From a virus: a stretch of DNA of 32,093 nucleotides. Made by a program: the position numbers and the translations under genes. Below the pieces are notes generated by a model that worked only from the letters and a program-made list of their open reading frames with translations, was not told the DNA's origin and ran no database searches. Positions 3,329 to 23,013 of this stretch are shown one piece after another; within the stretch, counting starts at the first letter, position 1, and the number at the start of each line of letters is the position of its first letter. The stretch covers positions 1-32,093 of the IMG/VR virus record IMGVR_UViG_3300030090_000612. The stretch is one strand, 5' to 3'.

Positions 3329-3757
3329 TTAAACTCTACTTACTAGTTTAGCTATTTGTTGTACAAAAGGAAGTAAAGCTATTGCCATCAATAAATTAAC
3401 TCCTGTATGTACTAAAGCTATTCTTAATGTATCACCTCTTGGCATACCATCTGATACTAATAAACCAGCTAACCATATTGTACCTGTTGTACCTACATTA
3501 GCTCCTAATACTGCACCTATAGCTGCAGGTAAAGGAACTGCTCCACTCGCTACAAGAGCTATTATTGCGGTGGTAGATAGTGAAGATGACTGCCAAGCCA
3601 AAGTCATAATAATACCACCAAAAAACATGTAAACTGGATTAGCTATAAACCAAGATAAATGATCTATGTTTCCTAGTTCTTTCATACCACCAGAAAACAT
3701 CTTCAAGCCAATATAAAAAATAACTAGTCCAATAATAATTTGAACTGAATTGTACAT
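3329..3757 (-). CDS. Half-length Na+/phosphate cotransporter-like membrane protein (NptA/Na_Pi_cotrans domain)
   Basis: A 142-residue, very hydrophobic protein that carries one copy of the Na/Pi cotransporter repeat. The signature QSSS is at residues 56-59 within LAWQSSSLSTTAIIALVASG. The second hallmark, GANVGTT, is at 85-91 within GAVLGANVGTTGT, and the closing ALVHTGVNLL at about 114-123 also fits the family. Cellular NptA/YjbB-type carriers have two such repeats in a chain of 300 or more residues, so this is about half a transporter and would have to dimerise or assemble with a host subunit to transport. It lies in the minus-strand block between the EF-hand membrane gene and the endolysin. 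Likely an auxiliary metabolic gene for phosphate uptake; a structural or regulatory membrane role cannot be excluded. Confidence 0.85.
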   Translation of the reverse strand: MYNSVQIIIGLVIFYIGLKMFSGGMKELGNIDHLSWFIANPVYMFFGGIIMTLAWQSSSLSTTAIIALVASGAVPLPAAIGAVLGANVGTTGTIWLAGLLVSDGMPRGDTLRIALVHTGVNLLMAIALLPFVQQIAKLVSRV

Positions 3758-7808: not shown

Positions 7809-8018
7809 TTAATCTGACCATCCTTCAGCCCTCATTGCGTCCTCTACATGCTTTAAAGTAAATGGTCTACCGTAATGAGCTTGTACGGCTTCTCTTACAT
7901 AGAATACATCACTGTGGGGAATATGTAATTCTTCAATGTTCCCATTAACTACATGTCTATAGAATTCTCCAAGAACATTGTCTGTGTATAGTTTTACTGA
8001 TTTTCGTGGCAAAGTCAA
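7809..8018 (-). CDS. First leftward gene; small conserved-looking hypothetical protein
   Basis: A 67-69-residue protein with a compact alpha/beta look: residues about 25-65 read VNGNIEELHIPHSDVFYVREAVQAHYG then LKHVEDAMRAEGWSD. Two TTG starts are possible. AAAAAGG lies only two bases from the TTG at 8018 but eight from the one at 8012, so 8012 is the more likely start. As the first gene of the leftward block it follows the central regulatory region directly. No family is recognised; it could be a small regulator, by position only. Confidence 0.66.
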   Translation of the reverse strand: MTLPRKSVKLYTDNVLGEFYRHVVNGNIEELHIPHSDVFYVREAVQAHYGRPFTLKHVEDAMRAEGWSD

Positions 8019-8176
8019 TACCTTTTTACAAAAAATACAAATTTATTCCTTATCGTTATAATGTATTGTTAATAATAGATATTTAATTAAAGTGTCTGCT
8101 ATATGCATCACTAGTATAGAAGATATACATGATAAAGAATAATTAAATAACTAGTAAATATATTATTATTATTATT

Positions 8177-8206
8177 GTACATTTAAAGTGTAACATTGTA
8201 CGTGTA
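8177..8206. repeat. 30-bp direct repeat, copy 1
   Basis: Starts GTACATTTAAAGTGTAACAT and continues to ACGTGTA. It matches 8240-8269 at 29 of 30 positions; the sixth base differs. It contains one half-site (TGTAACA) of the palindrome found elsewhere in the region. On the minus strand it lies downstream of the candidate leftward promoter. Confidence 0.9.
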
Positions 8207-8239
8207 ATAGTTAAGTATATTTATATTTAATAAGTGTAA

Positions 8240-8269
8240 GTACAGTTAAAGTGTAACATTGTACGTGTA
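8240..8269. repeat. 30-bp direct repeat, copy 2
   Basis: Starts GTACAGTTAAAGTGTAACAT, 63 bases after copy 1 (six helical turns). The next bases, TCACTTTAAGTGA, form a short palindrome. Two phased, near-identical copies suggest protein-binding iterons. Confidence 0.9.
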
Positions 8270-8308
8270 TCACTTTAAGTGACCCTACCCAAATATGTTA
8301 TATACATA

Positions 8309-8336
8309 GTTTTACACATTTTTAAGGCCATGTCAA
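8309..8336 (-). promoter_or_regulatory. Candidate leftward sigma70-type promoter
   Basis: On the minus strand TTGACA (8336-8331, exact -35 consensus) is followed after 16 bases by TAAAAC (8314-8309, four of six -10 matches). It would read toward the leftward block, whose first gene starts at about 8012-8018. The leader of nearly 300 bases would include both 30-base repeats. Palindrome copies at 8354 and 8399 lie just upstream. Confidence 0.4.
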
Positions 8337-8353
8337 CCCCCTATTACCTATTA

Positions 8354-8370
8354 TGTTACATATTGTAACA
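8354..8370. promoter_or_regulatory. Palindromic operator-like site, copy E
   Basis: TGTTACATATTGTAACA: perfect 7-base arms TGTTACA/TGTAACA with a 3-base centre. Same arm sequence and spacing as the other copies. It lies 17 bases upstream of the candidate leftward -35. Confidence 0.75.
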
Positions 8371-8398
8371 ATAAGTGATCAATATAGTAGTAACATTT

Positions 8399-8415
8399 TG
8401 TTACAAACTGTAACC
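8399..8415. promoter_or_regulatory. Palindromic operator-like site, copy F (one mismatch)
   Basis: TGTTACAAACTGTAACC: the same arms and spacing with one end mismatch. It is 45 bases from copy E, centre to centre. Confidence 0.65.
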
Positions 8416-8776
8416 TTATGGTGTGTAAACCACTATATATGTAATGTGGTTAACAGTAGATTTTACTGATCTGTGTATTTATGTGTATATATATACGCAC
8501 AGTACCCCACCGTCCCATGCCGTCCAGACGCTGCTTAAATATGCGCCTGCGCAAGAGGGCCAGTTACGCATGATGGATGCTAGTTTCTGTCACACTTCTT
8601 TTATACGTGACGTGCTACACGTTATTATTGCGCCTAGCTTGTGACATCGGTTGGTGTTGTCTCTTTATATATACTGTCAGTTGCCAGACATCTATAATGG
8701 GTAGTGGTATGGTTGGGAAATGTGAAGCACATCTCTATCAGTTGATGTACATTATAAATATATATCCCCTATCATT

Positions 8777-8793
8777 TGTTACATTATGTAACA
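8777..8793. promoter_or_regulatory. Palindromic operator-like site, copy C
   Basis: TGTTACATTATGTAACA, a perfect 8-base inverted repeat around one base, followed by TTTTAAAA. It lies 17 bases before the TTGACG of the candidate promoter for the first rightward gene. Confidence 0.8.
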
Positions 8794-8809
8794 TTTTAAA
8801 ATTAATGGG

Positions 8810-8838
8810 TTGACGTCATTTTCAAATTGATATAGAGT
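8810..8838 (+). promoter_or_regulatory. Candidate early rightward promoter
   Basis: TTGACG (8810-8815), 17 bases, then TAGAGT (8833-8838; four of six -10 matches). It precedes the 226-aa early gene at 8869, which has AGAAGGA before its start. Palindrome C sits just upstream of the -35. Confidence 0.45.
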
Positions 8839-8868
8839 TTACTATATTAAATAGAAGGATTTAAACAA

Positions 8869-9549
8869 ATGACCAAAACAATAACCAACACAAGTGAATA
8901 TTCAGCCAAAATTAAAACATTCTTAAAAGTTAATACGTCAACCGGCACAAAGGCAAGAAAAGCTAATGACTCTTTAAATAGTATTTTTGCTCCTACTAGT
9001 GAAGCATTCCAAACCCTAGCGGATTCAGTTGAATTTTGCTTTACTCAACTTGATCAAGGTAAAAAGAATATTTCAACAGATATGAAAAATAAAACTGGCA
9101 TATCTAATGCCCTTAGATTTAAAATGAGTACAAAAGGGAAATATGAGGAATGCCGAGTAACTATGGCCGCTATTAAAAAATACGTAAATAATAGAGATGC
9201 AATAGATGAATATATTAAAAAGAGTAATAATACATTTACTAATATTAGATCGGTATTCCAAAATATAGCTAATAATGGTTTAAAAATAGACGAGGAAACT
9301 GGAAAGATTATTGAGAAACCAAAAAAAGAAAGTGAAGCAGAAGCAGAAACTAATGAAGAAACTGTTAATATGTCGGAACTAACAGACGATAAATATGTCC
9401 AACTTCTTATAATTAAAATGATGCAAGATAAGAAAGATCCGAAGAAAATACTTTCTATAATGTATGAAAAGCTCAACAAGGTACAAACACCAACATCAAC
9501 TATTGTAAAAGTAACGCCACCAACTGCAAAGAAAGCAAAGGCATCATAA
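8869..9549 (+). CDS. First rightward early protein, unknown function
   Basis: A 226-residue protein rich in Lys, Asn, Thr and Glu. The first 145 residues look helical with regular hydrophobic spacing (YSAKIKTFLKV, FQTLADSVEFCFTQL, IDEYIKKSNNTFTNIRSVF). A low-complexity acidic linker follows (about 151-170, KKESEAEAETNEE). A short helical end (DDKYVQLLIIKMMQDKKDPKKILSIMY) finishes in a Lys/Thr/Pro/Ala tail. There are no cysteine clusters, spans or known motifs. It is the first gene after the control region and is closed off by its own terminator, so it is probably made early and in quantity. DNA binding or host takeover is possible; no family is recognised. Confidence 0.8.
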   Translation: MTKTITNTSEYSAKIKTFLKVNTSTGTKARKANDSLNSIFAPTSEAFQTLADSVEFCFTQLDQGKKNISTDMKNKTGISNALRFKMSTKGKYEECRVTMAAIKKYVNNRDAIDEYIKKSNNTFTNIRSVFQNIANNGLKIDEETGKIIEKPKKESEAEAETNEETVNMSELTDDKYVQLLIIKMMQDKKDPKKILSIMYEKLNKVQTPTSTIVKVTPPTAKKAKAS

Positions 9550-9574
9550 ACACATAAACACATAAACAACTTAT

Positions 9575-9610
9575 AACACTAGCTAGGTTAAACACTGGCT
9601 AGTGTTTTTT
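9575..9610 (+). terminator. Rho-independent terminator after the first early gene
   Basis: Perfect 9-base stem AACACTAGC (9575-9583) / GCTAGTGTT (9598-9606) with a 14-base loop, ending in a run of six T (9605-9610). It separates the first early gene from the next promoter at 9633. Confidence 0.85.
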
Positions 9611-9632
9611 ATTGTGGAACAATTAACACAAG

Positions 9633-9662
9633 TTGACAACTTTATTTAACTTGTGCTATTTG
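9633..9662 (+). promoter_or_regulatory. Candidate promoter for the GP88-like gene
   Basis: TTGACA (9633-9638), 18 bases, then the extended -10 form TGCTATTTG (TATTTG at 9657-9662). The -10 runs into palindrome A, so a bound protein would cover the start point. The same arrangement recurs at 10512. Confidence 0.55.
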
Positions 9663-9677
9663 TTACATAATGTAACA
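9661..9677. promoter_or_regulatory. Palindromic operator-like site, copy A
   Basis: TGTTACATAATGTAACA, a perfect inverted repeat overlapping the end of the -10 element. TTTTAAAA follows, as in copy C. It lies 35 bases before the GP88-like start codon. Confidence 0.82.
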
Positions 9678-9711
9678 TTTTAAAACTAGTAATCAAAGAA
9701 AGTAAAAACAA

Positions 9712-10485
9712 ATGAATAAACAATTAAGCAAAACCGAACTTGCAATTTTGAACAATAGGTCATTGTTTCAATATAAAGTTAAGCCAGCAAGCCTTGACGT
9801 TATGAGAAAAAGTGAAAGGCTTATTAAACGTTCAACTAATAAAAAATTAGGAAAGAAAGTTACAAAAGGCATTTGGAAATCTTACCCTATCTATACTTTA
9901 ACACTTGAGGAAAGGGCCACTTGCCCTCGATCATGTTTTCATTATGAAGATTGCTTCGGTAACAATATGCACCGAGCTATTAGATATCGGCATGGCCCAG
10001 AGCTTGAAGCTATGTGTGAAGATGAGTTGGTGGTGTTGCAAGCCAAGCATCCTAACGGTTTTGTTGTTCGCTTGCATATACTAGGAGACTTTTACAGCGT
10101 TTCCTACGTTGCAAAGTGGGCTGGCTGGCTAACTAAATTTCCAGCCTTGCACGTGTACGGTTACACTGCAAACCAGCCTAACGCACAAGACAAATTAGAA
10201 CGTGACATAGGGCAGGCCATACTTTCATTAAGGACAAATTGCCCTAACAGATTTGCAGTTAGGTTTTCGGGTAATTTTACCTTTGATACTTGGACTGCTA
10301 ATAGTTATGATGATCCTGTATCAGTTGAAATGGTAAAGAATAAACAAGCCTTTTTATGCCCTACCCAAATCAGTAAAGAGACAGGGCGATATGCTAAAAA
10401 AGATGAGGAAACTATTGTGCCTGATTGTGGTGCGTGTGGCTTATGCTGGACAGCCAGTAAGCCAGTAATATTTATTACACACTAA
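9712..10485 (+). CDS. GP88-like phage protein with cysteine motifs
   Basis: A 257-residue protein that I match by memory to the phage Gene-product-88 family. It shows ATCPRSCFHYEDCFGNNMHR at residues 69-88 (Cys71, 75, 81). RLHILGDFYSVSYVAKW lies at 120-136, LHVYGYTA at 146-153 and CGACGLCW at 239-246 (Cys239, 242, 245). The two cysteine clusters are about 160 residues apart and could jointly hold a metal or Fe-S centre. The biochemical role of the family is not established, as far as I know. The gene is a monocistron-like early unit with its own promoter and palindrome and is followed by a second identical-style promoter. Confidence 0.82.
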   Translation: MNKQLSKTELAILNNRSLFQYKVKPASLDVMRKSERLIKRSTNKKLGKKVTKGIWKSYPIYTLTLEERATCPRSCFHYEDCFGNNMHRAIRYRHGPELEAMCEDELVVLQAKHPNGFVVRLHILGDFYSVSYVAKWAGWLTKFPALHVYGYTANQPNAQDKLERDIGQAILSLRTNCPNRFAVRFSGNFTFDTWTANSYDDPVSVEMVKNKQAFLCPTQISKETGRYAKKDEETIVPDCGACGLCWTASKPVIFITH

Positions 10486-10511
10486 CCATTCAACCTGACA
10501 GATAGCACGAT

Positions 10512-10540
10512 TTGACATTATAATTGAATCATGCTATTTG
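10512..10540 (+). promoter_or_regulatory. Candidate promoter for the early micro-ORF series
   Basis: TTGACA (10512-10517), 17 bases, then TGCTATTTG (TATTTG at 10535-10540) running into palindrome B. It is a near copy of the promoter at 9633 and drives the gene at 10576 and its overlapping followers. Confidence 0.55.
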
Positions 10541-10555
10541 TTACATAATGTAACA
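10539..10555. promoter_or_regulatory. Palindromic operator-like site, copy B
   Basis: TGTTACATAATGTAACA, identical to copy A and in the same place relative to the -10. It lies 21 bases before the next start codon. Confidence 0.82.
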
Positions 10556-10575: not shown

Positions 10576-10776
10576 ATGAGTTATACAATATATAAAGGCC
10601 ATCAATCAAAAAAACCTATGGCATTGCATCAAGATTTAAATACTGCTACATATGAAGCAATACTATGGGCTATTGAAGTTGATAATGTAGTAACAGTTAG
10701 AGATACGTTTGGTTGCCTACGTTACTCTGTAGATCCACACGCCCCAATGGGAAAAAGAATAGGACATTACAAATGA
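10576..10776 (+). CDS. Small hypothetical early protein
   Basis: A 66-residue protein starting MSYTIYKGHQSKKP, with AGAGGA ten bases before the ATG. It has mixed alpha/beta character (ATYEAILWAIEVDNVVTVRDTFG) and a basic end. The stop TGA overlaps the next ATG (ATGA). It is the first gene behind promoter/palindrome B. No family is recognised. Confidence 0.7.
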   Translation: MSYTIYKGHQSKKPMALHQDLNTATYEAILWAIEVDNVVTVRDTFGCLRYSVDPHAPMGKRIGHYK

Positions 10777-11330: not shown

Positions 11331-11463
11331 CATGCTACAAGATAGAAAGTCACCGCAAGTAATACCACCAAAAAAAGGTAACAAAGCAAAACACAACAGG
11401 AGAAAAGATAAGGAAGGATTAAAAAATGAAATACGAAATGAGAAACTTTATCAAGACAACTAA
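11287..11463 (+). CDS. Basic micro-protein (58 aa) overlapping its neighbours
   Basis: A 58-residue frame starting MKKKKIVYRNPVARDM within the last 44 bases of the preceding gene (AAAGGCAAG precedes the ATG). It ends after the start of the next gene. The RNPVA segment followed by a basic Lys/Arg stretch (KKGNKAKHNRRKDK) resembles small T7-group proteins I recall with a KNPVAK start. It is likely nucleic-acid binding by charge only. Confidence 0.58.
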   Translation: MKKKKIVYRNPVARDMLQDRKSPQVIPPKKGNKAKHNRRKDKEGLKNEIRNEKLYQDN

Positions 11464-11575
11464 GAAAATGTTACATAATGTAACAAATGAACCTGAACAA
11501 TCTAACAATAACTGGAAACGTGAAAGACAGAAAGCACGTAAAGCAAAACAAATGCACAGGAGAATTGCAGCATGA
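11426..11575 (+). CDS. Basic micro-protein (49 aa) containing palindrome D in its coding sequence
   Basis: A 49-residue frame starting MKYEMRNFIKTTKKM with AAGGAAGGA upstream. The palindrome TGTTACATAATGTAACA lies inside it and encodes part of MLHNVTN. The end is strongly basic (KRERQKARKAKQMHRRIAA). Its TGA overlaps the next ATG. Translation is plausible; function is unknown. Confidence 0.52.
   Translation: MKYEMRNFIKTTKKMLHNVTNEPEQSNNNWKRERQKARKAKQMHRRIAA
11469..11485. promoter_or_regulatory. Palindromic operator-like site, copy D (inside a reading frame)
   Basis: TGTTACATAATGTAACA, identical to copies A and B but lacking the upstream TTGACA and the TTTTAAA following the other copies. It may be a roadblock or silencer site within the transcribed region. 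Confidence 0.7.
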
Positions 11576-12843: not shown

Positions 12844-13053
12844 ATGAAAACATCTACACAACACATTAAAATATTAAACCACTTAGAAAAAGTAGGTTCA
12901 ATTTCTGTAAGAGAGGGTATGGTTGAATACAGCATACCAAGTCTAACCAAACGTATCTCAGAATTGAGAAGGATAGGTTATAAAATAGAAGACCAGTGGA
13001 AAAAACACAAAGTTACAGGCCAGTGGTACAAACGATATTACTTGGCTTCCTAA
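12844..13053 (+). CDS. Winged helix-turn-helix DNA-binding protein
   Basis: A 69-residue protein with the short phage HTH pattern QHIKILNHLEKVGSISVREG then PSLTKRISELRRIGYKIEDQW and the wing WYKRYYLAS. The layout (helix, SI turn, recognition helix with RI.ELR..GY.I, beta wing) matches small HTH_39-type domains. AAGGGGA lies nine bases before the ATG. Placed directly behind the strongest promoter in the window, it is a good candidate for a transcription regulator, possibly of the TGTTACA sites; that link is inference. Confidence 0.8.
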   Translation: MKTSTQHIKILNHLEKVGSISVREGMVEYSIPSLTKRISELRRIGYKIEDQWKKHKVTGQWYKRYYLAS

Positions 13054-13940: not shown

Positions 13941-13969
13941 ATGTATACTAATTGCAAAGGATTGATAGT

Positions 13970-14575
13970 ATGAAAGGTTACACTGTAAAACAAATACAGT
14001 ATAAAGACACTAAGGATTTAATTCTTAACGTCCACTACGCTAAAAGGATGCCTAGTATATCATACGCTTATGGTTTATTTGAAGATGGAGAGATGGTGGG
14101 TCTTGTTAGTTATGGTTCACCTGCTTCTCCATTTTTATGTAAAGGTATAATGGGAGAGGAGCACAAGAGTAAAGTCATAGAACTAAATAGATTGGTCTTA
14201 TATAACAACAAAAAGAATGAAGCTAGTTATCTTGTGTCTAACTCACTAAAACTACTGCCTAAACCTAAGTGTGTTGTAAGTTATGCCGACACTAAAGAAG
14301 GGCACACAGGGTACATCTATCAGGCCTGTAACTTTATGTTTACAGGTACAAGCAAGCCACGCACAGACATGGCGGCTAAAAATGGAGCACACTCTAGGCA
14401 TCATAGCGGAGACAGGACTAAACGAGTTGATAGGTCTGCAAAACACAGGTATATTATATTTACAGGTAACAAGAAGGAGAAGAAATTTATGCAGAGTATA
14501 TTAAAATATACAATACAAGATTACCCTAAAAAGTGTATTAAGGAGAAAATAAATGACAAAAGAAGAATTTTATGA
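13970..14575 (+). CDS. Mom-like DNA modification protein (GNAT-fold acyltransferase type)
   Basis: The protein is 201 residues from the ATG at 13970 (AAAGGA nine bases upstream; an in-frame ATG at 13952 lacks a site). I match it to the Mom family of phage Mu, which modifies adenines in DNA to N6-carbamoylmethyl-adenine and blocks restriction. Segments shared with Mom-like proteins are YGLFEDGEMVGLVSYGSPAS at 34-53, ELNRLVL at 71-77, SYADTKEGHTGYIYQACNF at 104-122 and RSAKHRYI at 155-162. The basic C-terminus overlaps the next gene by 23 bases. The strong hairpin upstream suggests tight control, as Mom is toxic when made early in Mu. The modification chemistry in this phage is inferred. Confidence 0.8.
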   Translation: MKGYTVKQIQYKDTKDLILNVHYAKRMPSISYAYGLFEDGEMVGLVSYGSPASPFLCKGIMGEEHKSKVIELNRLVLYNNKKNEASYLVSNSLKLLPKPKCVVSYADTKEGHTGYIYQACNFMFTGTSKPRTDMAAKNGAHSRHHSGDRTKRVDRSAKHRYIIFTGNKKEKKFMQSILKYTIQDYPKKCIKEKINDKRRIL

Positions 14576-15033: not shown

Positions 15034-15853
15034 TATACCCACTAACCTAGACTTTGAAGTAGAGTTTGAACCAACTAAAGTTAATGATAAGAAGTACGTT
15101 ATCAATGCTGACACAGGTAAGTACCTTGGTATAGTTGGCAATGGCTTTAATTGTGCCTCGCATGGTGACTTTTATAGTAAGCTAAGAGACACAGTGACAG
15201 AGGGCATCAGTGCCTATGAACTGCAAGATGCTAAAACTAGATGGCATACTGCACGTAATGGAGCATGGACTATGCTTGATATAACACTACCTAATATGAC
15301 TAGTCAGGTAGTCTCAGAAAAACATCAGACAGAACTAGGCAATCGTTTGATTTGTTTACATGGTGTTGATGGGTCATGCTCTAACCAAGTGTACTATGGC
15401 ATGATAGATTTCTTTTGTACCAATGGTATGATACAAGGTGAGTACGATAAGGTACGTAGAAAGAACACCACTAACTTTTCTTTGGGTGCTTTCATTCAAG
15501 AGTTGAAGAACGCAAGGACTTCTTTCTATGACAATGCAGCTAAGATGCAGGTATGGGCAGAGACTAGTCTCAAGTATGTAGATGTTAAATCTTTGCTAGA
15601 TGACATGCTTAAATCTAAGCGTAAGTCTGAGAAAATGTACAACCTATACATGCAAGAGACAGGTACACGTGGTCATAACAAGTGGGCATTGTACTCTGCC
15701 TTCACCAACTATGCCAGCTATGCTGATGAACAGAATGGCTTTAAGTTGAAGGAGACAGGTAACGATACCAAAGCAATCAGCATGTGGTCACGTGAACAGG
15801 AAGTGAGCAAGCTGATAAGTGACAAGCGATTTGTTGAACTTGAAGCAGCATGA
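15020..15853 (+). CDS. DUF932 (plasmid/phage-like TIGR03299-type) protein
   Basis: A 277-residue protein of the DUF932 type. It has the VINADTGKYLGIVGNGFNCASH start region, FFCTNGMIQGEY at about residues 131-142 (the CTNGM signature), and an end with HNKWALYSAFTNYASY (about 220-235), usual for the family. Members occur on plasmids and phages near replication genes; the function is unknown. A second ATG at 15026 is spaced better from AGGAG and may be the true start. It lies between the Mom-like group and the recombinase-like gene and overlaps the latter by four bases. Confidence 0.85.
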   Translation: MVMFDIPTNLDFEVEFEPTKVNDKKYVINADTGKYLGIVGNGFNCASHGDFYSKLRDTVTEGISAYELQDAKTRWHTARNGAWTMLDITLPNMTSQVVSEKHQTELGNRLICLHGVDGSCSNQVYYGMIDFFCTNGMIQGEYDKVRRKNTTNFSLGAFIQELKNARTSFYDNAAKMQVWAETSLKYVDVKSLLDDMLKSKRKSEKMYNLYMQETGTRGHNKWALYSAFTNYASYADEQNGFKLKETGNDTKAISMWSREQEVSKLISDKRFVELEAA

Positions 15854-16611
15854 ATCTTAAATCTAGCAGCAAGTTAACGGACTTGATTAACTACTACTAT
15901 TTATCTAATGATTACAGTATGTTACGTGACTCTACTAAAGTAGATTATAGGTACTTTCTTACAGTGCTACATCAATCTCTAGGGTCACGTAAGTATACTT
16001 GTATAACTAGTAAGATGGCTAAACAAGCCTATGAAGATTGGGTTAAGCGTGGCATTACCTTTGCTAATAAGATAGCTACTTGTGCTAACATAGTATTTAA
16101 CTATGCAATACAAATGAAACACGCTACCTTTAATCCTTTCAATGGGATCAAAAGAAAAAAAGCACCACAACGTAAGGTTGTGTGGCAACATGGAGATGTA
16201 GTAAAGTTTCTTGACACTGCGTACTCTGACTACGAGTACAGAAACATAGGTCTGATAGTACACATGGCGTATGAATGGAAACAGAGAATCGGTGACATGA
16301 GAAATTTACAATGGGAGAATATACATTTGAGTAAAAGTATGGTACATCTTGAACAAAGCAAGCGAAGGGCAGAGGTGTTTCTTCCTATATCTGAAAGCCT
16401 TAACACTATGTTAAATGAACAAAGAAAGGACTTTGGCTTTCAGGAATTGGTAGCTCCCCACCCAAGGCCAAGTCTAGGAAAGTTTAGACCATATGCTATG
16501 GAACGCTTGTCAAAAGTAGGTAGACGTGTTATGAGACTAGCTAAACTACCAGAGAGATTACGTCTAATGGATTTAAAAAGAATAGAGGAACTTGTGTATG
16601 AACATAAATAA
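15850..16611 (+). CDS. Tyrosine recombinase-like protein lacking the C-terminal catalytic part
   Basis: A 253-residue protein. It has the N-terminal SAM-like core-binding layout of tyrosine recombinases (residues about 8-100). A catalytic domain start follows, in which Arg146 (YEWKQRIGDMRNLQWENI) and Lys171 (EQSKRRAEVFLPI) match the first Arg and beta-hairpin Lys. The chain stops after LRLMDLKRIEELVYEHK. Where active enzymes have H-x-L-R, then GH and the nucleophilic Tyr some 60 residues on, this one has M-D-L-K-R and ends about 10 residues later. It is therefore unlikely to cut DNA alone. It could be a degraded integrase or a repurposed DNA-binding protein. The end overlaps the primase start. 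Confidence 0.75.
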   Translation: MNLKSSSKLTDLINYYYLSNDYSMLRDSTKVDYRYFLTVLHQSLGSRKYTCITSKMAKQAYEDWVKRGITFANKIATCANIVFNYAIQMKHATFNPFNGIKRKKAPQRKVVWQHGDVVKFLDTAYSDYEYRNIGLIVHMAYEWKQRIGDMRNLQWENIHLSKSMVHLEQSKRRAEVFLPISESLNTMLNEQRKDFGFQELVAPHPRPSLGKFRPYAMERLSKVGRRVMRLAKLPERLRLMDLKRIEELVYEHK

Positions 16612-20961: not shown

Positions 20962-23013
20962 ATGAAACTTGTTCTTGATGTAGAAAATACTGTAACCAAA
21001 CGTGATGGTAAACTACATCTTGATCCATTCGAGTCTGATAATTCGCTTGTGATGGTGGGGATGCTAGATGATCGCAACAAAGAAAATATAATTACCTTTG
21101 ATCACGCAGAGCAACAGCCTACCACAAATGGTTGGCAGATTGTCCAAGATAAACTGGACTCTGCCAGCCTACTAATTATGCACAATGCAGCACACGATTT
21201 GTTGTGGCTATGGGAGACAGGCTTTACCTATGACGGTGCAATCTTTGACACTATGTTAGGTGAATACATACTACAACGTGGTCAGAAAGAACCATTGTCT
21301 CTTGAAGCATGTGCAGAAAGATATGAGCTAGAGAATCTCAAACAGGACTCTTTGAAGGAACACCTACGTAAAGGTGGTACTGTTAGAGAGATGCCCTTTG
21401 AAGAGTTATCTAGCTACCTCAGTGCTGACCTTAAAGCTACCAGAGATTTGTACAATATGATTAGTGGTAGGTATGAAGAGTTTGATGATGACACTGGCCT
21501 TGCAGGTACACTCAAGCTAACAAACAAACTAGCTATGTTACTTACACGCATATACCAACGTGGTTTTACTGTTGATAAAGATGCATTGGAAACTGTGCGT
21601 GTGGAGTTTGAACAGGAACGTAATGAATTAGTTAGACAGCTAGAGGAACAGGTTATTGATCTGATGGGTGACACTCCTATCAATCTCAACAGTCCAGAGC
21701 AACTGTCGTGGGTTATCTTTAGTCGTAAGCCTTTTGACAAGAAGCATTGGGCTGAAGAGTTTGGTGATCGTATGCTGGACGCTGACTTCAAAGCAGAGGT
21801 CAACAATCTTAGTGAGGTTATGCACAAGACACAAGCACGTCAGTGTAATGATTGTAATGGCACAGGTAAAACTTACAAGACACGTAAGGATGGTTCACGT
21901 TACGCCAAGCCCAATCATTGTAAGGACTGTGGTGGTGGTGGATATGTTTATCTTGAACTACCAGCAATAGCTGGACTAAAGTTCAATGCACCTAATTCCA
22001 AGTGGGTAAGTGCCAATGGTTTTAGCACCAGTAAAAACAATCTTACTGTACTAGAGGGCAGAGCTAGGTCACGTAACATGAAGGAAGCAGAGCTATTCCT
22101 GCAGAGAGTACGTAGACTATCAGCAGTGGAGACATATCTTTCTAGCTTTGTAGAGGGCATTGCTACACACACTAAATCTGATGGTAAATTACATGTACGA
22201 TTACTACAACATCGTACTGGTACAGGTAGACTATCAGGTGCAGATCCCAACATGCAGAACATGCCACGTGGAGGTACGTTTCCTGTCAAGCGTGTGTTTG
22301 TTTCAAGGTGGGAAGGTGGTCAGATTATGGAAGCTGACTTTGCACAGTTAGAGTTTAGGGTAGCTGCGTTTTTATCTCAGGATAAGGTAGCTATTGAAGA
22401 AGTCAAGACAGGATTTGATGTGCATAGTTATACAGCCAAAGTTATATCTGATGCTGGTCAATCTATATCTCGCCAAGATGCAAAGGCACATACGTTTGCA
22501 CCTTTGTATGGTGCTAGTGGATATGGAAGGACACCTGCAGAAGCGGCATACTATAAACAGTTTACGACAAAGTATGCAGGTATTGCTAAGTGGCATGAGC
22601 AATTAGCCAAAGAAGTATTGAACACTGGTAAAGTTAAAACGCCATCAGGCAGGGAGTTTGCCTTTCCTGATGCACAGAGAAGACGGTATGGGGGTGTGAC
22701 ATATTTCACACAGATTAAAAATTATCCTGTACAATCTTTTGCAACTGCTGACATCGTACCTATATCTCTGTTATACATAGATAGGTTGTTATCAGCTAAC
22801 AGGCTACGCAGTTGCGTAGTAAACACGGTGCATGACAGTATTGTTATTGACGTGCATCCAGAAGAGGAAAGGAAAGTACTAAGAGTAATTGAAGCTGCCA
22901 ATGATAAACTTATATGCATCATCAATAAGACATGGGGTATTGATTTTAATGTGCCATTATTATTAGAAGCAAAGATGGGTTTAAATTGGCTTGACACTAA
23001 AGACGTTGCATGA
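20962..23013 (+). CDS. polA: Family A DNA polymerase with 3'-5' exonuclease and internal DnaJ-like zinc motif
   Basis: A 683-residue replicative polymerase. The exonuclease domain shows DVE (6-8), HNAAHDL (74-80) and YLSADLKATRD (152-162). Palm motif A is MEADFAQLEFR (456-466), motif B is RQDAKAHTFAPLYG (504-517) and motif C is NTVHDSI (621-627). The position matching E. coli 762 is Phe512, the ancestral residue. Between thumb and palm lies a cysteine module, CNDCNGTG (295-302) and CKDCGGGG (320-327), a pair of CxxCxGxG motifs as in DnaJ, where T7 polymerase carries its thioredoxin-binding insert. A partial DnaJ domain in the polymerase is reported for phage HMO-2011, so this assigns the phage group. 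AGGGAGA-like sequence precedes the ATG. Confidence 0.95.
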   Translation: MKLVLDVENTVTKRDGKLHLDPFESDNSLVMVGMLDDRNKENIITFDHAEQQPTTNGWQIVQDKLDSASLLIMHNAAHDLLWLWETGFTYDGAIFDTMLGEYILQRGQKEPLSLEACAERYELENLKQDSLKEHLRKGGTVREMPFEELSSYLSADLKATRDLYNMISGRYEEFDDDTGLAGTLKLTNKLAMLLTRIYQRGFTVDKDALETVRVEFEQERNELVRQLEEQVIDLMGDTPINLNSPEQLSWVIFSRKPFDKKHWAEEFGDRMLDADFKAEVNNLSEVMHKTQARQCNDCNGTGKTYKTRKDGSRYAKPNHCKDCGGGGYVYLELPAIAGLKFNAPNSKWVSANGFSTSKNNLTVLEGRARSRNMKEAELFLQRVRRLSAVETYLSSFVEGIATHTKSDGKLHVRLLQHRTGTGRLSGADPNMQNMPRGGTFPVKRVFVSRWEGGQIMEADFAQLEFRVAAFLSQDKVAIEEVKTGFDVHSYTAKVISDAGQSISRQDAKAHTFAPLYGASGYGRTPAEAAYYKQFTTKYAGIAKWHEQLAKEVLNTGKVKTPSGREFAFPDAQRRRYGGVTYFTQIKNYPVQSFATADIVPISLLYIDRLLSANRLRSCVVNTVHDSIVIDVHPEEERKVLRVIEAANDKLICIINKTWGIDFNVPLLLEAKMGLNWLDTKDVA

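Follow-up and report, generated by a model that had tools for sequence, protein, structure and literature searches.

Lineage-specific palindromes in the early region of HMO-2011-type marine phages and a candidate phage protein that may read them

Palindromes of the window and of its relatives

The IMG/VR virus record IMGVR_UViG_3300030090_000612 is a viral fragment of 32,093 nucleotides, here called the window, and all window positions given below refer to the whole contig. This study deals with a palindrome, TGTTACA-N3-TGTAACA, that recurs in the early region of the window, and with gp01, the product of the first early gene of related phages, which is most likely the protein that binds such palindromes, as judged from sequence comparison. 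Perfect copies of the palindrome start at 8354, 8777, 9661, 10539 and 11469, a copy with one mismatch starts at 8399, and all copies are confined to 3.1 kb of the 32 kb contig (Table 1). When up to three mismatches are allowed, 12 matches are found against 4.6 +/- 2.1 in shuffled sequences, with none of 100 shuffles reaching 12, and an unbiased search for recurrent palindromes in a 9 kb region ranks this motif first by far (log10 p of -17, about -2 in shuffles). The repeat described in an earlier note on this DNA is therefore real, standing far above shuffles with five perfect copies and one mismatched copy. The five intergenic copies listed in that note, at 8354, 8399, 8777, 9661 and 10539, are all confirmed, but the one at 11469 had been overlooked; it lies within a small open reading frame (ORF), while the other four perfect copies are intergenic. 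The copies at 8777, 9661, 10539 and 11469 (array 1) have common 8-bp arms, TGTTACAT-N-ATGTAACA, whereas those at 8354 and 8399 belong to a separate array (array 2) with shorter or broken arms. The note's idea of one coherent operator set for a phage regulator is supported by the comparison with relatives given below, although the set is not uniform. The centre of the palindrome is asymmetric, TAA or TTA, and both orientations are present.

The window can be assigned, by its genes, to the HMO-2011-type marine phages, which are reported to be dominant and widespread in the ocean. This assignment is made because its family A DNA polymerase (ORF 20962-23013) carries a DnaJ CXXCXGXG insert, CNDCNGTGKT...CKDCGGGG, and is identical over its full length to those of CRP-345, CRP-1 and HMO-2011 at 73.8%, 71.3% and 65.1%, respectively. 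The gene order of integrase, primase, helicase, polymerase and ribonucleotide reductase (ORFs 15850, 16592, 17385, 20962 and 25991) also matches these three phages, including their integrase-primase-helicase-polymerase module (PMC9038755, PMC6918029). Leftward genes start at 8018 and rightward early genes at 8869, and a long noncoding region separates them.

Table 1. Palindromes, genes and other elements in the early region of the window
Feature	Position	Strand	Basis
Palindrome TGTTACATATTGTAACA, perfect, array 2, left of the conserved element	8354-8370		GTTAC/GTAAC repeats at the homologous place in L300, L306, L309, L315 and L317
Overlapping copies, array 2: degenerate 8389-8405 (3 mismatches) and one-mismatch 8399-8415	8389-8415		Sequence match
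Strongly conserved noncoding element ahead of early gene ORF 8869	8424-8500		91% identity to CRP-345, 89% to CRP-1; clade-wide
Palindrome TGTTACATTATGTAACA, array 1, upstream of ORF 8869 in gp01-leader position	8777-8793		67 sites upstream of gp01 in relatives, each with the phage's own palindrome
First early gene, 226 amino acids, divergent gp01 member, proposed palindrome-binding regulator; predicted helix-turn-helix at about residues 109-135	8869-9549	+	Profile match, hhalign, synteny
Promoter-like TTGACA-N18-TATTTG with a TGC extension ahead of the second hexamer; overlaps the 9661 palindrome	9633-9662	+	Consensus match only
Palindrome TGTTACATAATGTAACA, array 1, upstream of ORF 9712	9661-9677		Sequence match
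Early gene that follows the 9661 palindrome; GP88-like product (PF17338)	9712-10485	+	Pfam match
Promoter-like TTGACA-N17-TATTTG, overlapping the 10539 palindrome	10512-10540	+	Consensus match only
Palindrome TGTTACATAATGTAACA, array 1, upstream of ORF 10576	10539-10555		Sequence match
Small early ORF without assigned function, downstream of the 10539 palindrome	10576-10776	+	ORF list, library searches
Small ORF (MKYEMRNFIKTTKK...) with a palindrome inside it in relatives and window	11426-11575	+	47-49% identity to CRP-1/CRP-345 ORFs; family in 63 of 83 sequences searched
Palindrome in ORF 11426-11575, fifth perfect copy	11469-11485		Same place as relatives' GTCCAA/GTCCGA palindromes; identical in L321

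The 17-mer differs from what is found in CRP-1, CRP-345 and HMO-2011 in being private to the window lineage. In these three genomes and in eight more of the HMO type it is absent, the only matches being three scattered ones that have two mismatches. Our search for recurrent palindromes reveals that CRP-345 and CRP-1 have a palindrome of their own, GTCCAA-N2-TTGGAC, with about five copies per genome in the corresponding early region, and that HMO-2011 has about five copies there of TAGTCCG-N4-CGGACTA (GTCCGACAGCGGAC), the centre of which is again asymmetric (ACAG/CTGT) and occurs in both orientations. Other relatives have GTCCGA-N2-TCGGAC, and the relatives usually carry 3-8 copies at the same positions. 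Related phages, to which the earlier note had looked for a check, do lack the 17-mer at these promoters, but they carry a different palindrome at the equivalent places. The positions that correspond between window and relatives are the leader of the first early gene, the stretch upstream of ribosome-binding sites and the inside of the small ORF (MRYEM.NFIK). In this ORF the site reads TGTTACATAATGTAACA in the window and GTCCAACGTTGGAC or GTCCGATGTCGGAC in relatives, and because the peptide changes along with the site, from MLHNVT to VSNVG or VSDVG, it appears to be the DNA site rather than the peptide that is conserved. In the eight other HMO-type genomes the recurrent-palindrome search gave nothing comparable and no GTCCR-N4-YGGAC site is present; neither did these genomes give a gp01 match, even at maximum search sensitivity. 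CRP-2 has none of the sites.

TGTTACA-N3-TGTAACA occurs 6-12 times, mostly with GG..CC flanks, in three GC-rich phage contigs (L124, L131 and L201, with stretches of 58-62% GC). They form another palindrome-set group with the same core and are not counted as relatives, because of this GC content and because no homologs of the window proteins or of the polymerase were detected in them. Two other candidates were set aside: AATGCCT palindromes of three contigs (L011, L016 and L017), which lie within an extended A/T-rich palindrome of other contigs and are perhaps terminators, and GTCCAAGGTTGGAC inside the integrase gene (ERLSKVGR), which is unchanged in the GTCCGA phage L114 and is thus a coding coincidence.

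Covariation of gp01 with the palindromic site

The first early gene, gp01, is common to CRP-345, CRP-1 and, at 28%, HMO-2011. A profile scan of IMG/VR gave 80 gp01 loci. No locus is without a site of this class, and 79 have two or more. Most of these phages are pure, with GTCCAA or GTCCGA at every copy, and two small groups have half-and-half sites. Three residues of gp01, numbered as in CRP-1, vary with the site. Residue 113 is T in 47 of the 49 phages with GTCCAA sites and S in all nine GTCCGA phages. Residue 117 is K in all nine of the latter, and in eight of these the R or K at residue 120 is replaced by A, N, S or Y. Column 145 is as strong as these three, but it merely encodes the operator that lies inside gp01. 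On a tree that leaves out residues 108-152, 8 changes of site class are seen, in the form of A-to-G switches of the site. Among 7 independent pairs, residue 113 follows the class in 6.5 on average and never opposes it (sign test, median p 0.016), and a scan of 176 gp01 columns shows that only 113, 117, 120 and the operator-encoding 145 reach 6 of 7. The other early genes tested gave no comparable covariation, save for residues encoded by the operator itself. One natural pair, L307 with GTCCAA and L316 with GTCCGA, comes near to a natural experiment on such a switch: the homologous operator flanks are nearly or fully identical, all operators have switched, and gp01 is altered in the predicted helix. 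Joint switching of all copies in a phage, with the flanks preserved, is thus seen in the relatives, the window lineage having too few members for such a comparison. The outer flank base (A versus T or C) was also considered as a second specificity position, but it tracks a deep family split and is uninformative.

The covarying residues sit in a predicted helix, KKGFTSL[T/S]ALQxAMx. In the AlphaFold model of gp01, which has a mean confidence (pLDDT) of 75 and values of 80-90 around helices 92-102 and 109-122, residues 113, 117 and 120 lie at the start of helix 109-122, which follows helix 92-102 in a helix-turn-helix arrangement. Because the residue-to-base covariation and this placement in the model point to the same helix, gp01 most likely binds the operators, with helix 109-122 as its putative recognition helix. 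No Pfam, PHROG or PDB match names a family for gp01, which is an absence of match and not proof of a new fold, and comparison of the model with the PDB gave a best Foldseek E of 1.4 and a best VIA Z of 3.4, the latter to a TetR-family chain, values below a meaningful level for a helical model. Covariation of this kind pinpoints the protein, its residues and the base together.

In the window itself, ORF 8869 is the first gene of the rightward early operon and has its own palindrome, at 8777, ahead of it. Its product matches the gp01 profile with an hmmsearch E of 0.0069 and 15.2 bits; none of 20,000 shuffles scores as high (best 14.2), and the next ORF of the window reaches 3.0 bits. With hhalign the best local match falls over the predicted helix-turn-helix, at a probability of only 15% and an E of 0.0018. 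At the place aligned to KKGFTSL[T/S]ALQxAM it reads SNNTFTNIRSVFQNIAN; its recognition helix would be about TNIRSVFQNIAN. Neither a scan of viral contigs nor a tblastn search of phages gave homologs of ORF 8869. A distant homology of ORF 8869 to gp01 is moderately supported, and the link between gp01 and the palindromes of the window draws on synteny, on weak but significant similarity and on the positions of the sites.

A proposed early switch and its alternatives

Private palindromes at equivalent positions, their co-occurrence with gp01 and the residue-to-base covariation over independent switches were all obtained by direct computation. The explanation that we find best, and on balance probable, is that a sequence-specific DNA-binding protein encoded by the phage, the gp01-family product of the first early gene, has the palindromes as its operators and would act as an autoregulating early repressor with heteroimmunity. 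Each lineage would have a private operator in several copies, placed in the gp01 leader, often inside gp01, upstream of early ribosome-binding sites and inside the small ORF. In this mechanism gp01 synthesis would begin right after infection, and the protein would bind the operators directly, as a dimer, via the helix-turn-helix, and would shut off its own transcription and the early operon, thus acting as a repressor rather than an activator; an autoregulated early repressor is probably the simplest reading. Since operator and recognition helix switch together, and repeatedly so, the regulators of related phages would be mutually blind, and a resident phage would shut down a co-infecting one that shares its type but would not silence one of another type. 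Selection for phage-phage immunity would favour such recurrent changes of specificity. In the window, the ORF 8869 product may have acquired TGTTACAT-N-ATGTAACA specificity. The wider claim, on which we are evenly divided, is that gp01 and its operators are an undescribed DNA-binding family with a naturally evolving code, in which one base and three residues have switched at least 7 times, giving private early switches that leave co-infecting relatives blind or sensitive to one another, and that the window is a far branch on an unrelated 17-bp operator.

The comparison with relatives also bears on the regulators proposed in the earlier note. The winged helix-turn-helix protein at 12844 (HTH_39, phrog_4973) has no homolog in any other locus with an equivalent set of sites and is not supported as the regulator. 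For the early-operon sites, the covariation of a phage protein with the site speaks against a hijacked host factor, although such a factor may still apply to the 8354/8399 array. Recombination offers another account of the palindromes, in which they are joints for the exchange of early cassettes and have no dedicated binding protein. Different accessory genes do lie behind the same module of operator and ribosome-binding site in different phages, and homology between the window and L321, a 97% identical relative, starts right after the 10539 palindrome, L321:1-136 having another upstream gene, which is consistent with cassette exchange at the operator. Recombination between repeats has also been reported for Corndog-type repeats (PMC4351075). 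Such joints would leave unexplained the class-wide switch of all copies and its covariation with three gp01 residues, so that we give this account very little credence, and cassette exchange is probably a by-product.

The position of the sites relative to genes and promoters has been used to weigh further possibilities. For about half of the sites (183 of 378), a Shine-Dalgarno sequence and a start codon lie no more than 60 bp downstream, the median gap being 9 bp, and in near-full-length relatives most sites lie within gp01 and the early region. Both features argue against the view that gp01 binds the palindromes for another end, for instance to activate early or middle genes, to take part in DNA replication, or to act as a centromere/partition or nucleoid-like protein. 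ParB-type proteins, too, would be suited by dispersed palindromes of 14-17 bp, and several sites are inside genes or far from recognisable promoters, 29 being classed as 'other' and 120 lacking a promoter-like match. In the window, however, no gene resembling ParA was noticed, and we hold such a role for gp01 to be unlikely. The short distance of about 9 nt from many sites to the Shine-Dalgarno sequence might instead suggest RNA hairpins in early mRNA leaders, recognised by an RNA-binding protein or serving processing or stability, and symmetric changes of A to G with T to C would keep an RNA stem as well. Against hairpins stand the asymmetric centres found in both orientations in HMO-2011 and the window, the presence of sites within coding genes as well as a leader, and the location of the covarying residues in a predicted helix-turn-helix, and we therefore consider hairpins highly improbable.

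The earlier note's statement that palindromes overlap the -10 of near-identical promoters is correct in that the TTGACA-N17/N18-TATTTG matches exist and overlap the 9661 and 10539 palindromes by 2 bases each. However, sigma-70-like matches in the region are not above chance (25 against 25.7 in shuffles), and a better-scoring alternative, CTGACA-N18-TATAAT at 10495-10524, would place the 10539 palindrome just past the start site.

Several points weigh against a gp01 repressor. Because no library match names a DNA-binding family, the helix-turn-helix of gp01 is a reading of a predicted model, and the ORF 8869 product is only about 20% identical to the gp01 family, its own structure model being poor. 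The geometry of operator and promoter differs, with overlap of the -10 in the window and, as the commonest arrangement in the CRP types, a distance of 27-30 bp past the -10, and many sites in the CRP types have no promoter-like match. As regards immunity, no prophage was found when the gp01 profile was run against 84,980 species genomes. The remaining points concern array 2 (window 8160-8420), which lies left of the conserved element at 8424-8500 and has three exchangeable alleles among relatives, TGTAACA, TGTGATCACA and GAAC-N-GTTC. Array 2 does not track gp01, CRP-345 and L309 having close gp01 proteins and different array 2, and the copies at 8354 and 8399 have the same 7-bp arms as the early-operon sites. 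Because of the shared arms and the independence of array 2 from gp01, one other factor might bind all copies in the window, and this sharing is the main weakness of the gp01 assignment for the window.

In its full form this alternative states that an array-2 factor of the TGTAACA/TGTTACA allele, either a host transcription factor or a phage protein, binds all six copies, and that the gp01-like protein of the window has lost this role. The five GTCCAA/GTCCGA-type relatives named in Table 1 carry GTTAC/GTAAC repeats at the place of the 8354/8399 copies, so that there the motif would be read by a factor other than gp01, and array-2 alleles differ between close relatives (L309/L077 against CRP-345), as expected if they follow the host. 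The four early-operon copies, on the other hand, have 8-bp arms and sit at the positions of the relatives' gp01 sites, while the arms of the array-2 copies are shorter or broken, and in relatives the array-2 sites are mostly spaced N4, not N3. We find this alternative doubtful. A conserved leftward gene (7809-8018) was rejected as the array-2 factor, being identical in L309 and CRP-345 despite their different alleles, and no gene family stood out when presence and absence were compared with the array-2 allele.

Known systems and other features of the window

Three kinds of mycobacteriophage repeats resemble the sites described here. By analogy, those of Corndog appear nearest in form, the cluster A stoperators in logic and the cluster K SAS/ESAS in position. 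The cluster O phage Corndog carries 17-bp palindromic repeats, TGTTCGG-N3-CCGAACA, for which a transcriptional role was thought unlikely and no binding protein was identified by the authors (PMC4351075). They share with the window the 7-3-7 layout, invariant arms, an A/T-rich asymmetric centre in both orientations, intergenic as well as intragenic location, and cassette exchange. In contrast to the 34 copies spread over the Corndog genome, however, the sites here are fewer, lie mainly in the early region, are lineage-specific in sequence and have a covarying candidate protein, and the window arms, TGTTACA/TGTAACA, differ from those of Corndog. Cluster A stoperators (PMC6550527, PMC9283540) likewise are many dispersed sites for one phage protein with group-specific sequences, and show heteroimmunity between groups, which here is a proposal. 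They differ in being asymmetric and oriented, with one repressor binding as a monomer, whereas the sites here are 14-17 bp dyads with both centre orientations; gp01 has no Pfam or PHROG match to repressor families. The SAS/ESAS of cluster K, whose function is not known (PMC3203893), also lie just upstream of the starts of non-structural genes and are attached to different genes in each phage. The SAS, however, includes the ribosome-binding site and is asymmetric and mostly in one orientation, and the ESAS are 17-bp imperfect inverted repeats with a variable spacer.

The main text of a review of HMO-2011-type phages makes no mention of promoters, palindromes or repressors, a text search for HMO-2011 with inverted repeats gave no match among open-licence papers, and in the same literature we found no paper on gene control in these phages. 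The approach used here offers a worked example of how the binding protein can be sought when palindromic phage repeats have no known role, as in Corndog. If heteroimmunity does result from the switches, metagenomes would reveal how marine phages that are abundant but hardly culturable compete with one another.

The element at 8424-8500 is 89-91% identical to that of CRP-1 and CRP-345, though the DNA polymerases are only 71-74% identical. It contains an inverted repeat, AACCAC...GTGGTT, has no Rfam match, and its core (AACCACTATRTRTGTAATGTGGTTAAC) is not found in the 84,980 species genomes; it is perhaps an origin or an attachment site. A direct repeat of 30 nt, GTACAKTTAAAGTGTAACATTGTACGTGTA, occurs twice, 63 bp apart, at 8177-8269 in the leftward control region. 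The integrase (15850-16611) is without the N-terminal arm and without the C-terminal part that follows 'LRLMD.RRTG' in relatives, a short form also seen in the near relatives L042 and L043, and it is probably inactive as a recombinase. CRP-3, which belongs to another subgroup, integrates (PMC6918029). A Mom-family protein at 13952-14575 (PF25680, E 2e-36) suggests that the phage may have modified DNA bases. The ORF at 3329-3757 encodes, judging from its translation only, a membrane protein resembling Na/Pi cotransporters, and genes of this kind have been reported in HMO-type phages (PMC9038755).

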